Positions 7,124 to 18,842 of a stretch of 36,490 bases of DNA are shown here, in pieces. The position numbers and the translations under genes were made by a program. Source of the stretch: Flavobacteriaceae bacterium (GTDB taxonomy: Bacteria; Bacteroidota; Bacteroidia; Flavobacteriales; Flavobacteriaceae); NCBI GenBank assembly GCA_016649745.1, contig JAENXD010000004.1, positions 1 to 36,490 of the forward strand, in the 5' to 3' direction. The first letter of the stretch is position 1. Each line of letters begins with the position of its first letter. The notes under the pieces were generated by a model. The model ran no database searches and was not told where the DNA came from. It saw only the letters and a program-made list of their open reading frames with translations.

Positions 7124-10100
7124 TTACTTTAAATTTTCCAACCATTTTCTTGCATTCACAAATGCTTCTGCCCAAGGCGAAACGTCATCTTTTCTTCCAA
7201 CAGGATAATAAGCCCAATTCCATTGAAAAATAGAACGTTCAATATGTGGCATCATCACCAAATGACGACCATCTTTTGAACTCATCATAGCAACATTATA
7301 ATCGGAGCCATTCGGATTTGCAGGATATTCTTCATAACCATATTTAGCTACAATATGGTATTCTTTTTCTTCTAGAGGAAGGTTAAACTTCCCTTCGCCA
7401 TGCGAAATCCAAACGCCTAAAGTGCTGCCGACCAAACTGGAGAGCATCACGGAATTATTTTCTTGTATGGTGACTGAAGTGAATCCGCTTTCGTGTTTGT
7501 GTGAATCGTTATGCACTAATTTTCCATGAACTTTGTGTTCCGGATTTATCACTTCCAATTCCATAAAAAGCTGACAGCCATTGCAAATTCCAACCGATAA
7601 AGTATCTTCTCTTTTGAAGAAATTATCCAAGGCTGTTTTTGCTTTTTCGTTGTATAAGAAAGCACCTGCCCAACCTTTTGCAGAACCCAAAACATCTGAA
7701 TTTGAGAATCCGCCAACCGTACCAATAAACTGAATGTCTTCCAATGTTTCACGTCCGCTGATTAAATCGGTCATATGAACGTCTTTCACGTCAAAACCAG
7801 CCAGGTACATAGCATTTGCCATTTCACGTTCAGAATTGCTTCCTTTTTCACGAATGATGGCAGCTTTAGGTTTTTTCTCGTCATTACGAAGGAGAGTATC
7901 GACTGAAGTAATCTTTTCCTTTGAAGCAGATTGCTTCGTTTCACTCGCAATGACGTCTCCTAATTTCCCTGTAAAATGTTTTGGAAAAGTATATTTTAAA
8001 GGTTGATTTTTATAGTTTTCAAACCTTTCTTGCGCTTTGTTGTTTGCGCATTGTTTTTGATCTAATAAATAAGAAGTTTTATACCAAACATCGCGCAATT
8101 CGGGAATATTGAATTCCAGTGTTTTTTCTAGCGTTGTGATTGTGACTTTATCGCTTCTTACCGCATTTCCCAATTCAAAAAATTCAATATTTTTTTCATT
8201 TAAAATAGCGGGAAGTTCAGCATCATTACTTTGAAAAATAATTCCGCTGTTTTCAGCAAATAATACTTTAACAACATCTTTTTCCTGCAATTGGGAAATG
8301 TCAATATTCAATCCCACCATTTCCTGTGAGAAACACATTTCCAGCAAGGTTGTTATCATACCTCCTGCAGAGATATCATGTCCGGCTACAATTCGTTCTT
8401 CTTTAATTAATTGCTGAATGGCATTAAAAGCTCTTTTGAAAAAAGCCGCATCTTTAATGGTAGGTGTTTCTATTCCAATTTTATTTTGAGTTTGCGCAAA
8501 TGATGAACCACCCAATTTATAGGTGTCATTTGACAAGTTGATATAGTACAATTTGTTTAAACCGTTTTTTTGAAGTACAGGTTCAACCACTTTTGTAATA
8601 TCATCACAATGACCGGCTGCCGAAATAATAACGGTTCCGGGAGAAATCACTTCATCATTTGGGTATTTTTGCTTCATTGATAAAGAATCCTTACCTGTTG
8701 GCACATTAATTCCAAGTTCAATGGCAAAATCTGAAACCGCTTTTACCGCTTGGTACAAACGGGCATCTTCACCTTCATTTTTACAAGGCCACATCCAGTT
8801 TGCAGATAATGAAACAGAAGCTAAATTATTTTTTAAAGGTGCCCAAATAATGTTGGTTAACGCTTCTGCAATGGCATTTCGGCTCCCTGCCACCGGATCA
8901 ATTAAGGCGGAAATGGGCGCGTGACCAATAGCGGTTGCAATTCCTTCTTTACCTAAATAATCTAAAGTCATCACGCCACAATTGTTTAAAGGCAATTGCA
9001 ACGGACCTGCACATTGTTGTTTGGCAACTTTTCCGCCCACACAACGATCTACTTTATTGGTCAACCAGTCTTTACATGCTACTGCTTCCAATTGAAGTAC
9101 TTGCTCTAAGTAGGTTGCAATGTTTCTTATATGGTATTCTAAATCGCCATAGTTGTATTTGATGGTTTTATCGGTCATCACTACTTTTGGCGAACTGCCA
9201 AACATAGCTGCCAAGGTAAAATCCATTGGTTTTTCACCTGTTGATTTTGATTTGAAAGTAAAACGATTGTTATTCGTTACTTCACCAACTTGGTACATGG
9301 GTGAGCGTTCACGATCCGCAATTTTTTGCAGTAATTCAATATCTTTCCGACCAATAACCAATCCCATTCTTTCCTGAGATTCGTTACCTATGAGTTCTTT
9401 TGCTGAAAGCGTAGGATCACCAATCGGCAATTTATCTAAGTCAATTAAACCACCGGTTTCTTCCACCAATTCCGACAAACAATTTAAATGTCCGCCGGCA
9501 CCGTGATCGTGTATGGAAACAATTGGATTGATATCACTTTCAACCATGCCACGAATGGCATTTGCGGCACGTTTTTGCATTTCCGGATTGGAACGTTGAA
9601 CAGCGTTTAGTTCAATTCCGCTTGCGAATTCACCTGTATCCGATGATGAAACTGCTGCGCCTCCCATCCCAATTCGGTAATTGTCACCTCCTAATATCAC
9701 TATTTTATCTCCTGCTTTTGGTTTGTCTTTTAAAGCCTGATCTGCTTTTCCATAACCAATGCCGCCCGCTTGCATAATTACTTTATCATAACCTAATTTG
9801 CGTGAGCGTGCGCTGAGCGAAGCCGAAGTGGATTCTTCATGTTCAAAAGTTAAAACAGAACCGGCGATAAGCGGTTGGCCAAATTTGTTCCCAAAATCGG
9901 AAGCTCCATTTGAAGCTTTTATCAAAATATCCATTGGTGTTTGGTACAGCCATTTTCTTTCTTCCATACCTTTTTCCCAAGGTCTGCCCTGAGCGTGGTT
10001 GCTGAGCTGAGCCGAAGTAGAGTCGAAGGGTAAACGAGAATAGGAAGTCATATAAACAGCGGTTCCCGCCAATGGCAAAGATCCTTTTCCACCAGCCAAT

Positions 10101-10912
10101 CGGTCCCTAATTTCACCGCCAGATCCGGTAGCAGCACCGTTAAACGGTTCTACGGTTGTAGGAAAATTATGTGTTTCTGCTTTTAATGAGATCACCGATT
10201 TAAAATTCTTTTTCTGATAGAAATCAGGTTTGTCGGCTGATTTTGGTGCAAATTGCTCAACTACCGGACCTTCAACAAATGCCACATTGTCTTTATAGGC
10301 GGAAACAATTCCATTTGGATTTATTTCTGAAGTTTTTTTGATCAGTTTAAACAATGAGGCTGGCATTTCTTCACCATCTATTACGAATTTTCCGTTAAAT
10401 ATTTTATGCCGGCAATGTTCTGAATTTACCTGTGAAAATCCGAATACTTCAGAGTCGGTTAATTTTCGACCCGTTTTTTTACTTAAACCATTCAAATAAT
10501 CAACTTCTTCTTCGCTTAATGACAAGCCTTCGGATTTATTATAGGCAGCAATATCGTCAACTTCTAAAATAGGGGCAGGCTCAATATTTATGGTAAAAAT
10601 GTCTTGGTTCAAAGAAGCATATTTTTGAAAAATCATGGGATCAAATTCGGCGTCTTTTGTTGAAGCATTAAATTCTTCAATTCTAAGGATTCCTTCAATA
10701 CCCATATTTTGGGTAATTTCAACGGCATTCGTACTCCAGGGTGTTATCATGGCAGCACGCGAACCAATAAAAAAAGCATCCACAGATGCCTCAGCTAATT
10801 TTTCCTGATTCCCAAAAAGCCAGTTTAATTTTTCAATAGCTGTTAGGGAAAGTTCTTTTGACGTTTGTACAGCAACTATTTTACTGTTTTTGTTTCCAAA
10901 GAATTGGATCAT
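7124..10912 (-). CDS. purL: Phosphoribosylformylglycinamidine synthase (large, single-chain PurL)
   Basis: Catalyses step 4 of purine synthesis: FGAR + ATP + glutamine to FGAM. I chose the start MIQFFGNK at 10912; the TTG 45 bases upstream would add an unlikely N-terminus and overlaps a promoter-like box. The 1262-residue single chain has an N-terminal linker, two AIRS-type ATP-binding halves (SLKAETHNFPTTVEPFNGAATGSGG near 250; GGDNYRIGMGGAAVSSSD) and a C-terminal glutaminase domain with nucleophile Cys about 1110 in VGICNGCQL and PHIERSIFQWNW near the end. Three segments (about residues 295-309, 361-370 and 986-1012) look like inserted genomic repeats and are listed separately; the frame stays open throughout. 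It is transcribed divergently from the his operon. Confidence 0.97.
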   Translation of the reverse strand: MIQFFGNKNSKIVAVQTSKELSLTAIEKLNWLFGNQEKLAEASVDAFFIGSRAAMITPWSTNAVEITQNMGIEGILRIEEFNASTKDAEFDPMIFQKYASLNQDIFTINIEPAPILEVDDIAAYNKSEGLSLSEEEVDYLNGLSKKTGRKLTDSEVFGFSQVNSEHCRHKIFNGKFVIDGEEMPASLFKLIKKTSEINPNGIVSAYKDNVAFVEGPVVEQFAPKSADKPDFYQKKNFKSVISLKAETHNFPTTVEPFNGAATGSGGEIRDRLAGGKGSLPLAGTAVYMTSYSRLPFDSTSAQLSNHAQGRPWEKGMEERKWLYQTPMDILIKASNGASDFGNKFGQPLIAGSVLTFEHEESTSASLSARSRKLGYDKVIMQAGGIGYGKADQALKDKPKAGDKIVILGGDNYRIGMGGAAVSSSDTGEFASGIELNAVQRSNPEMQKRAANAIRGMVESDINPIVSIHDHGAGGHLNCLSELVEETGGLIDLDKLPIGDPTLSAKELIGNESQERMGLVIGRKDIELLQKIADRERSPMYQVGEVTNNNRFTFKSKSTGEKPMDFTLAAMFGSSPKVVMTDKTIKYNYGDLEYHIRNIATYLEQVLQLEAVACKDWLTNKVDRCVGGKVAKQQCAGPLQLPLNNCGVMTLDYLGKEGIATAIGHAPISALIDPVAGSRNAIAEALTNIIWAPLKNNLASVSLSANWMWPCKNEGEDARLYQAVKAVSDFAIELGINVPTGKDSLSMKQKYPNDEVISPGTVIISAAGHCDDITKVVEPVLQKNGLNKLYYINLSNDTYKLGGSSFAQTQNKIGIETPTIKDAAFFKRAFNAIQQLIKEERIVAGHDISAGGMITTLLEMCFSQEMVGLNIDISQLQEKDVVKVLFAENSGIIFQSNDAELPAILNEKNIEFFELGNAVRSDKVTITTLEKTLEFNIPELRDVWYKTSYLLDQKQCANNKAQERFENYKNQPLKYTFPKHFTGKLGDVIASETKQSASKEKITSVDTLLRNDEKKPKAAIIREKGSNSEREMANAMYLAGFDVKDVHMTDLISGRETLEDIQFIGTVGGFSNSDVLGSAKGWAGAFLYNEKAKTALDNFFKREDTLSVGICNGCQLFMELEVINPEHKVHGKLVHNDSHKHESGFTSVTIQENNSVMLSSLVGSTLGVWISHGEGKFNLPLEEKEYHIVAKYGYEEYPANPNGSDYNVAMMSSKDGRHLVMMPHIERSIFQWNWAYYPVGRKDDVSPWAEAFVNARKWLENLK
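7879..7955 (-). repeat. 77-bp palindromic repeat element inside purL
   Basis: The element begins CGTCATTACGAA and ends CTCGCAATGACG, which are inverted copies of each other (10 of 12 positions). A second, inner inverted pair is GAAGTAATCT/AGATTGCTTC. In purL it encodes about residues 986-1012 (VIASETKQSASKEKITS and TLLRNDE), a hydrophilic linker just before the glutaminase domain. The sequence resembles the intergenic repeat at 14032-14116, which also starts GTCATTACGAG. It is read through in frame, so it behaves like a coding-tolerated mobile palindrome. Confidence 0.72.
9803..9832 (-). repeat. Repeat-like in-frame insert B in purL
   Basis: About 30 bases encoding STSASLSARS (about residues 361-370) lie between FEHEE and RKLGYD, two stretches that I expect to be nearly adjacent in related PurL proteins. 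The DNA, read on the minus strand, contains ACTTCGGCTTCGCTCAGC, almost the same as ACTTCGGCTCAGCTCAGC in the insert at 9986-10030. It therefore looks like a partial copy of one repeat family. Exact ends are uncertain. Confidence 0.55.
9986..10030 (-). repeat. Repeat-like in-frame insert C in purL
   Basis: About 45 bases encoding PFDSTSAQLSNHAQG (about residues 295-309) lie between MTSYSRL and RPWEKGM. On the minus strand it starts CCCTTCGACT and ends GCTCAGGGC, the style of the 'CCCTTCGACT...CTCAGGG' repeats common in Bacteroidota genomes. It shares a core with the insert at 9803-9832. Exact ends are uncertain. Confidence 0.58.
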
Positions 10913-10992: not shown

Positions 10993-11016
10993 AGCCCCTA
11001 ACCCTCGAAGGGGAAA
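10993..11016 (+). repeat. Short C-rich/G-rich intergenic repeat
   Basis: GCCCCTAACCCTCGAAGGGG matches the pattern at 143-168 and 12436-12459 (GCCCC-TAACCCCCGAAGGGG). Three copies in this window, all intergenic, mark it as a genomic repeat. In the purL-his gap (10913-11575) it is followed by the larger palindrome at 11108 and low-complexity AAACAATTAAAC-like sequence; no gene other than the his leader was found there. Confidence 0.6.
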
Positions 11017-11107
11017 TTAATGCCTGAAAGTAAAAAAGTAATTGCGAACTATCCCTTTATAATAAATTAAAATTCTAAAATCGGAAATCACAAATCGTAA
11101 TTCAAGA

Positions 11108-11405: not shown

Positions 11406-11462
11406 ATGAATTTTACACAAAACCACCATCATCATTTTCATAGTCGCACTCAAGTGAGTTGA
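11406..11462 (+). CDS. hisL: Histidine operon leader peptide (18 residues)
   Basis: The short reading frame MNFTQNHHHHFHSRTQVS has five histidines within six codons (7-12), the hallmark of a his leader peptide. It lies directly upstream of a strong intrinsic terminator and of hisG. When charged His-tRNA is scarce the ribosome should stall on these codons, at 11424-11441. The segment AATTTTACACAA (11409-11420) in the leader can pair with TTGTGTAAAAATT (11470-11482), enclosing the His codons, so ribosome position would alter the RNA fold. The name follows the enterobacterial analogue; the sequences need not be homologous. Confidence 0.85.
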   Translation: MNFTQNHHHHFHSRTQVS

Positions 11463-11495
11463 AAATGTATTGTGTAAAAATTAAACATATATTTA

Positions 11496-11528
11496 AAACC
11501 CGTTTGAGTTCATCAAGCGGGTTTTTTC
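11496..11528 (+). terminator. his operon attenuator terminator
   Basis: AAACCCGTTTGA (11496-11507) pairs with TCAAGCGGGTTT (11513-11524) as a 12-bp stem with one G-U pair, a five-base loop, and a U-run reaching 11527. It sits between the His leader and hisG, so it would stop transcription before the structural genes. A candidate competing helix is ACTCAA (11448-11453, in the leader) with TTGAGT (11504-11509, in the 5' arm). That helix is only 6 bp and is a proposal. Confidence 0.82.
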
Positions 11529-11575
11529 TTTAAAACTCATTGATTTACTCAAACACAGCAACAAAAAAAATAAAA

Positions 11576-12435: not shown

Positions 12436-12746
12436 AGCCCCCTGACCCCCGAAGGGAGGACAGAGTGTAAATAAAATGTGTGGTACACATTTTTAGCGAT
12501 TGGGCCAGCTGGCGAAGGGGCATTTAAAATGTTAAAAGTTAGAAAGTTAAAAGTAAAAAAATTTAGTTATATAAAGATAATTATTTTTATCAACCAATCA
12601 AACTCCCTTTCCTTTGGAAAGGGTTGGGGATAGGATAAAAGTTAGAAAGTTAAAGGTTAAAATATTTAAAGTTATGGGGAGTAAACATATAACAATTAAC
12701 CTTTAAACGATTAAACAAATAAATGATTACACAATTTTAAAAAACA
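12436..12746 (+). other. hisG-hisD gap: repeats and hairpins, no gene
   Basis: This 311-base gap starts with a copy of the C-rich/G-rich repeat (12436-12459). It has a perfect 9-bp hairpin AAAATGTGT/ACACATTTT at 12473-12493 and another hairpin CCCTTTCC/GGAAAGGG at 12605-12623 followed by TTGGGGATAGGAT, a pattern typical of interspersed repeats. The rest is low-complexity GTTAAAAGTTAGAA-like sequence. No conserved reading frame was found. It is long for a gap within a his operon and might hold a partial terminator. Confidence 0.55.
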
Positions 12747-14031: not shown

Positions 14032-14116
14032 TGTCATTACGAGGAGTGCAAACGACGTGGTAATCTCTTTATTGGTTGAGATTGCCACAGCAAATGAAAA
14101 ATTTGCTTCGCAAAGA
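14032..14116 (+). repeat. Palindromic repeat between hisD and hisC
   Basis: It begins TGTCATTACGAGGAGTGC and contains GTAATCTCTTT ... GAGATTGCCAC, giving an imperfect stem, and ends near TTTGCTTCGCAAAGACA. The beginning matches the element inside purL (GTCATTGCGAG on the minus strand), so the two appear to be one family. It occupies most of the gap between hisD and hisC. Confidence 0.62.
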
Positions 14117-17023: not shown

Positions 17024-17102
17024 CGTCACCCTCAACTTGTTTCAGGGTCTCATTAGTATTGCATAATGTAGGATGAGATTCTGAAACAAGTTCAGAATGA
17101 CG
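17024..17102 (+). repeat. 79-bp palindromic repeat, copy 1 (hisH-hisA gap)
   Basis: The left arm starts CGTCACCCTCAACTTGTTTC and the right arm ends GAAACAAGTTCAGAATGACG. The arms pair with a few mismatches around a short centre. It has the same arms as the copies at 17901 and 18764. It fills most of the gap, and a folded RNA could affect mRNA processing or stability here. Confidence 0.85.
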
Positions 17103-17900: not shown

Positions 17901-17980
17901 CGTCACCCTGAACTTGTTTCAGGGTCTCATTATGATTTAACTTAAGTATGTTGAGATTCTGAAACAAGTTCAGAATGACG
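17901..17980 (+). repeat. 80-bp palindromic repeat, copy 2 (hisA-hisF gap)
   Basis: The left arm is CGTCACCCTGAACTTGTTTC and the right arm ends GAAACAAGTTCAGAATGACG, in the same orientation as copy 1. The centre differs (TATGATTTAACTTAAGTATG). It lies 33 bases after hisA and ends about 20 bases before hisF. Confidence 0.85.
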
Positions 17981-18763: not shown

Positions 18764-18842
18764 CGTCATTCTGAACTTGTTTCAGAATCTCAACATACAG
18801 ATATAAATCAGTATGAGAACCTGAAACAAGTTCAGGTTGACG
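18764..18842 (-). repeat. 79-bp palindromic repeat, copy 3, reversed (hisF-hisIE gap)
   Basis: Read on the minus strand it starts CGTCAACCTGAACTTGTTTC and ends GAAACAAGTTCAGAATGACG, matching copies 1 and 2. The asymmetric marks (CCTG arm versus TTCTG arm, and the TATGTTGAG side) show that this copy is turned around relative to the other two. It starts 7 bases after the hisF stop codon. Confidence 0.83.

Follow-up and report, generated by a model that had tools for sequence, protein, structure and literature searches.

How a short palindromic repeat, of a kind known to be dispersed across bacterial genomes, comes to be read as part of an essential enzyme is the question raised by the purL gene described here. 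The stretch of DNA analysed (the window, 36,490 nucleotides) is contig C31 of a 3.12 Mb Flavobacteriaceae genome in 283 contigs, which is 78% complete with 5% contamination. The genus of this genome is tied to Lutibacter by PurL sequences identical to named Lutibacter records. The purL gene (P0001; phosphoribosylformylglycinamidine synthase, 1262 aa; NF003672, 1469.7 bits) is located at 7124–10912 on the minus strand, and it is the only PurL match in this genome (single copy). According to the first-pass annotation, a complete palindromic element is translated inside purL, and together with two upstream inserts it argues for a mobility process that tolerates or favours coding sequence.

The element is a dimer that belongs to a genus-wide repeat family; its site is empty in some relatives, and between genera its DNA differs far less than the surrounding purL does. 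We consider it probable that a REP-like dimer was inserted into purL as a hairpin, that such entries occurred several times and were tolerated, and that the site was re-entered. The recurrent, phase-fixed hot spot in purL is new; in the open-access papers, supplements apart, no study was found that deals with this site in purL or with a coding subtype of fixed phase. Statements on published repeats refer to the available part of each source.

The dimer and the linker that holds it

The element at 7879–7955 (77 bp) is a head-to-head dimer of CGTC-tagged REP-like units with the CGTC tags outside, a known type of repeat that the first-pass annotation left unnamed. The coordinates and terminal inverted repeats reported earlier are correct, and the outer 12-nt arms, CGTCATTaCGAa and CGTCATTgCGAg, match at 10 of 12 positions. 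The left unit in the coding sense (7928–7955, minus strand) is of the short subtype CGTCATTGCGAGTGAAACGAAGCAATCT and gives the peptide VIASETKQS. The right unit (7879–7914, plus strand) is of a long diverged subtype, CGTCATTACGAAGGAGAGTATCGACTGAAGTAATCT, a close variant of which is present in the purL insert of genome G028 (L028). Both units start with CGTC. A second inner inverted pair had also been described; the pairing is present, but it stems from two REP-like units of different subtype, and the purL element is therefore a heterodimer.

Folded as single-stranded DNA, the segment 7879–7955 reaches −12.5 kcal/mol (shuffle mean −6.85, z −2.74; 2 of 200 shuffles as stable), and an inverted REP doublet able to form one hairpin, a feature of REPINs, is thus present in this fold. 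Each unit by itself is only weakly folded (−2.2 and −1.3 kcal/mol). Folded alone, the short unit leaves the CGTC tag unpaired and forms a 5-bp stem with a 12-nt loop, and the long unit forms no ATTAC stem. Beyond its stem the short unit ends in CT, and the next two nucleotides are CA, GT, TA or CT in five listed copies. A known RNA at this segment was rejected, the sole Rfam match near the dimer having an E value of 0.68, far under gathering and outside the segment.

The element is open and in frame, as had been claimed, and is translated as approximately DVIASETKQSASKEKITSVDTLLRND in the linker before the glutaminase domain. An AlphaFold model of PurL residues 780–1262 (28 alignment rows) is modest, with a mean pLDDT of 61. 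Model residues 194–232, which include most of the insert, are below pLDDT 50, and a strand is located just after, at 237–242. The low values are as expected for a loose linker.

The count of three repeat-derived inserts in one purL gene was confirmed, and both upstream inserts are real and vary within the genus. Insert site 1 (9995–10030, minus strand), translated as PFDSTSAQLSNH, is a CCCTTCGACTC..GCTCAG-type repeat fragment, and insert site 2 (9812–9832, minus strand), translated as STSASLS, is a CTTCG..GCTCAG-type repeat fragment. At these two sites, short CTTCGAC..GCTCAG-type fragments are present in some species, and the sites are empty in others.

States and age of the purL site

The PurL alignment contains 30 genomes, 29 from Lutibacter (of the 38 searched) and one from another genus; the 29 are those with the locus among the best 30, G007 (full-length PurL) and fragments being left out. 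At site 3, where the dimer is located, the 29 Lutibacter PurLs hold the dimer in 8 cases, other repeats in 3 (L014, L015 and L016) and a 12-residue linker in 18. An empty site in orthologous purL, for which the first-pass annotation had proposed to look, is thus present in close relatives. Some of the 12-residue linkers, for example HKPVILSAVERP, may be repeat remnants as judged by eye. An in-frame insertion in a gene of known function, with orthologues that are without it, is a feature of Rickettsia palindromic elements (RPEs), and it is found in purL. No target duplication was obvious in the 10 pairs listed, in which the linker is too variable to exclude one.

Among the best 80 of 581 named PurLs, a same-type dimer at the same codon and phase is present in Co_bin.381, two Polaribacter, Algibacter onchidii and a Seonamhaeicola MAG. 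The PurL of Tamlana nanhaiensis has a hybrid at site 3. In the purL of G023, 21 extra palindromic nt are located within the unit, and further inserts are nested in the dimers of L013, L019 and L059. The nested and replacement inserts at site 3 all preserve the frame. G023 shows the highest PurL identity (88%), yet the PurL tree puts it beside L011. Filled, empty, exchanged and nested states of the site are available in close relatives, some of them cultured isolates, which makes it possible to trace directly how such repeats insert, choose their target and are lost.

The PurL tree was calculated from 106 sequences with the insert columns removed and four rows identical to others dropped; L062, L111 and L112, with no readable site-3 segment, were counted as empty. 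The filled state takes at least 12 changes over the 106 tips, 7 of them inside Lutibacter, in a tree of PurL only that counts changes and cannot separate gain from loss. Filled and empty members form sister pairs at L024/L032, L050/L093, L059/L100 and L077/L098 (SH-aLRT 95–99) and at L055/L087 (82).

The codon comparison of the insert used the 11 rows in which the left unit is uninterrupted, to the exclusion of L010, L059 (nested) and L064 (hybrid). Same-residue codons are identical between genera in 230 of 244 cases (94%) in the left unit against 15683 of 30196 (52%) in the rest of purL, the filled rows having been selected by a peptide motif, a choice biased towards conserved copies. The flanks of the insert, 20 codons each, are ordinary (0.555 and 0.566 against 0.53). 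The difference between insert and surroundings indicates that the insert DNA is young, and the ordinary flanks indicate that the insert alone is young and no larger tract was exchanged. Exchange of a purL tract between genera is, accordingly, unsupported. The insert codons GTC, GCG, ACG and AAG are mostly rare in host genes. The insert arrived recently and probably several times; the codon and tree data favour repeated insertion over one old insertion.

One old insertion with many losses would likewise leave several genera with an identical codon, orientation and phase. In such a history, an insertion in an ancestor of Flavobacteriaceae would have been passed on by vertical descent with many losses, and the remaining inserts would have stayed alike through nucleotide-level constraint or through conversion between repeat copies. 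The same codon, strand and phase are found in the purL rows and in 17 coding rows, decayed-looking linkers such as KLEDVANTVKQSNKP and KLTDVIANNGKQPRP exist, and menE-like genes show a range of variants, all of which would suit this history. We nevertheless judge it unlikely, because the insert codons are far more alike than those around them and because well supported sister pairs differ in state. In addition, the purL copy of G013 is, by eye, unlike the copies listed from that genome, all of long subtypes, whereas conversion predicts likeness.

In the reading by repeated insertion, a head-to-head dimer with REPIN-like anatomy would have been inserted into the part of purL that encodes the loose linker preceding the glutaminase domain, with the frame kept. 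The dimer may have moved as a folded single-stranded hairpin, by machinery other than a Y1/RAYT transposase linked to it in these genomes, and the purL site would have been entered several times independently in Flavobacteriaceae. The insert would persist because, read in this direction and phase, it has no stops and adds a hydrophilic peptide to a linker that tolerates it. Once the linker had been seeded by a REP, later REPs would tend to re-enter the remnant. Such re-entry would account for a codon and phase that do not vary, for the variety of repeats at the site and for the nesting. A host function would not be needed. The conserved peptide and codons of the left unit could point to a selected role, as an adaptive linker or as an mRNA hairpin controlling purL. 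Such a role is very improbable, however, as the insert is absent from most relatives, the left unit is also present in unrelated genes, other repeats replace the dimer at the site, and the only nearby Rfam match is the one mentioned above.

The repeat family and its possible movers

The family pattern gave 136 matches in 27 of the 38 genomes of the genus, and 0 in the reversed control. In the window, a pattern-and-hairpin scan detected 8 CGTC-tagged units, with 0 in the reversed window. A relative of the purL element had been placed in the hisD–hisC gap, and it is real: a related unit of the long subtype with a TGTC tag is located at 14032–14065 on the plus strand, and its downstream partner arm looks degenerate. 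As to copies elsewhere in the genome, whose count had been proposed earlier, four were found by the family pattern, and the strict unit pattern gave the window copy only. A second full copy was not found with a 117-nt query against this genome; beyond its own locus, the query matched just 28 nt of a menE-like gene.

After merging copies identical including 15 nt on each side, the 136 matches correspond to 127 distinct copies. Only 14 of these are located inside long ORFs (150 aa or more, ends excluded), and the genes are purL, leuS, menE-like, metG, gltX, hsdM-like and PglX-like methyltransferases and one unnamed ORF. This share is far under the usual coding share of bacterial genomes. The proposal that the mobility process tolerates coding sequence is supported, but the suggestion that it favours coding sequence fails for the whole family, and may hold for one subtype. 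Of the 10 distinct copies of the 26-nt form, to which the purL copy belongs, 8 lie in long ORFs, against 6 of 117 among the other lengths, orthologues being non-independent in these counts.

A search of 299 Flavobacteriaceae genomes gave 25 copies of this subtype and its close variants in 19 genomes, with 0 in the reversed control. Long ORFs contain 17 of the 25, all on the sense strand and in phase 0; the exact 27-mer is in genes in 13 of 13 cases and the variants in 4 of 12. Four more exact 27-mer copies in the genus census (G002, G006, G012 and G023) are alike, and all 17 exact copies in the searched Flavobacteriaceae genomes are therefore in genes, in the sense direction and in one phase. 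In 395 genomes across the phylum, the only additional exact copy (G465, same phylum only) lies outside long ORFs. The 27-mer can be read without stops in only four of its six frames, which accounts for some of the phase fixation. That every exact copy within genes has one phase is notable, and selection for a tolerable peptide may explain it. The genes of the subtype by best NCBIfam match are leuS, purL, gltX, menD, mfd, hemW and icmF, where the cut frames of mfd and icmF score below the curated cut-off, as does the menE-like assignment.

VIASETKQS is found at one leuS site in six genera, and Lutibacter has empty leuS sites. Single sites of gltX (three genera) and of hemW (two genera) also have this peptide. 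By motif search, the leuS site was read in 29 of 30 loci: VIASETKQS in 3, VIPAEAGIS in 1, long inserts in 11 and short linkers in 14. VIPAEAGIS (L241) is presumably the translation of yet another palindromic repeat type. It is possible, although we hold this only tentatively, that Flavobacteriaceae contain a REP-like subtype specialised for coding genes, which would re-enter the same few codons of purL, leuS, gltX, hemW and menE, each time in the sense direction and in the phase that yields VIASETKQS, and whose targeting would rely on something other than a known transposase.

Mobilisation as a REPIN by a RAYT-type Y1 transposase of these genomes would agree with the REP-doublet anatomy described for REPINs in the available text of Bertels & Rainey (2011; PMC3116915), and the genome of the window has 5 Y1_Tnp matches. 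We attach very little weight to it, because a CGTC-tagged unit was found at 0 of 28 Y1 loci. At the Y1 loci of the genome itself, three were inspected and have other hairpins, and the motif scan gave a CGTC REP at 0 of 5. Furthermore, 14 of the 27 genomes with family matches have no Y1_Tnp match, including G028 with 23 matches, a few of the 14 being less than 90% complete. In the available text of PMC3733652 (Di Nocera et al., 2013), CGTC REPs likewise show no association with a transposase. A RAYT gene flanked by the same REP, as expected of REPINs, was not found at the 28 Y1 loci, and the RAYT link of the purL repeat is thus unsupported. Multiple copies with no associated Y1 transposase (136 matches, 0 of 28 loci), a feature of CGTC REPs, are found here.

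Many Lutibacter (L252–L262), the genome of the window among them (G000:C84:11499-11810), have a Vsr-like nuclease domain, DUF559, inserted in frame within the editing region of LeuS. The LeuS stretch between the flanking motifs is 147–181 residues with DUF559 against 16–17 when empty, and the site is where other species hold REP-like inserts. Open frames of 1022–1069 aa bearing DUF559 are present in many Lutibacter (L293, L295–L298, L301, L305, L306, L308 and L309). In L297 and L305, DUF559 lies within B12-dependent methionine synthase (MetH) with repeat-like peptides at both ends, and in L297 it is between two B12-binding domains. At L307:2-1114 and L310:2-1345, a long in-frame array of translated CGTC-tagged repeats (RHPEFSSGSDDVE..MLKQVQHDD) adjoins a stand-alone DUF559 gene; the array-bearing frame is glycosyltransferase-like by eye and has no Pfam match.

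As DUF559 is inserted in LeuS at a site that takes REP-like units elsewhere, and is in frame in MetH as well, it was considered as a mover. That such nucleases spread the repeats, or share landing sites with them by homing, is hardly credible: the two arrays beside stand-alone genes and the unit density of stand-alone DUF559 regions (46 units in 99.9 kb, 0.46 per kb, against 0.04–0.09 at the purL, leuS and menE loci) would favour it, but two of the 15 regions account for 44 of the 46 units, and one of the two (L334) was stretched to include known matches, any unit is present in only 3 of 15 DUF559 regions against 8 of 30 purL, 6 of 30 leuS and 3 of 30 menE loci (intragenic units included), and the repeat-rich genomes G022, G018 and G036 are without a DUF559 match.

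Comparison with known repeats, and the his region

The closest comparison is with the CGTC-tagged REPs of PMC3733652, which include intragenic units. In the available text, these have a stem of 8–9 bp, a loop of 4–5 nt and a short unpaired tail that is mostly CCA, and head-to-head dimers predominate. The repeats described here share with them the unpaired CGTC or TGTC tag, the A-T stem start, head-to-head dimers, intragenic units and the lack of a linked transposase, here of the Y1 type. In contrast, the purL unit has a 5-bp stem, a 12-nt loop and apparently no CCA tail, and several genera have an insert at one purL codon, made of different repeats and always in a single phase. A stem of 8–9 bp with a loop of 4–5 nt is absent from both purL units, and the purL unit is therefore called a REP-like variant and not assigned to any of the four CGTC families. 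Different REPs at about the same recB site in two Xanthomonas are described in PMC3733652, where 'G. forsetii' is listed among the CGTC hosts. The same text equates RPE-4 and RPE-6 with CGTC REPs and leaves open how CGTC REPs move; the main text does not contain 'purL'.

Palindromes in frame in genes are shared with the Rickettsia palindromic elements (Ogata 2000, 2002, as described in PMC10969869 and PMC3733652). Unlike those, as far as the available texts describe them, the purL element has a Bacteroidota host and is 77 bp against about 150 bp (PMC10969869), and it recurs at one orthologous codon across genera. An essential enzyme appears to have gained peptide repeatedly from repeat DNA outside Rickettsia, the best-known case. 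With REPINs (PMC3116915), the dimer shares the inverted REP doublet able to form one hairpin; in the text available, however, REPINs occur with RAYTs and are extragenic, whereas the purL dimer is coding and without a RAYT link. RepRanger (PMC12306157) has two Flavobacterium genomes in a table, and the word 'intragenic' is not in its main text.

Head-to-head pairs in the window are the purL element and three elements of the his region. The three are intergenic dimers of another CGTC-tagged family (CTGAAC..TTTCAG type), at 17024–17102, 17901–17980 and 18764–18842. The unit at 17901 has an 8-bp stem and a 5-nt loop, within the range that the purL units lack. The ORFs flanking 17901–17980 are, we assume, hisA and hisF. 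The hisA–hisF gap holds a dimer of the ATTGC/ATTAC type in four Lutibacter genomes (L145, L163, L201 and L123), against the CTGAAC type in the window, which indicates that the repeat family was exchanged at an intergenic spot. The 'G. forsetii' among the CGTC hosts is presumably Gramella forsetii, a Flavobacteriaceae.

Two further features of the window were observed. At 11407–11530, a short frame, MNFTQNHHHHFHSRTQVS, is followed by an inverted repeat and a T run upstream of a hisG-like gene, and from its sequence this region may be a histidine leader peptide with an attenuator. A CCCCTAACCCCCGAAGGGG-type repeat (family D10) is present in three copies, at 145–168, 10995–11018 and 12439–12462, and may be the DNA from which the peptides on either side of DUF559 in MetH are translated.
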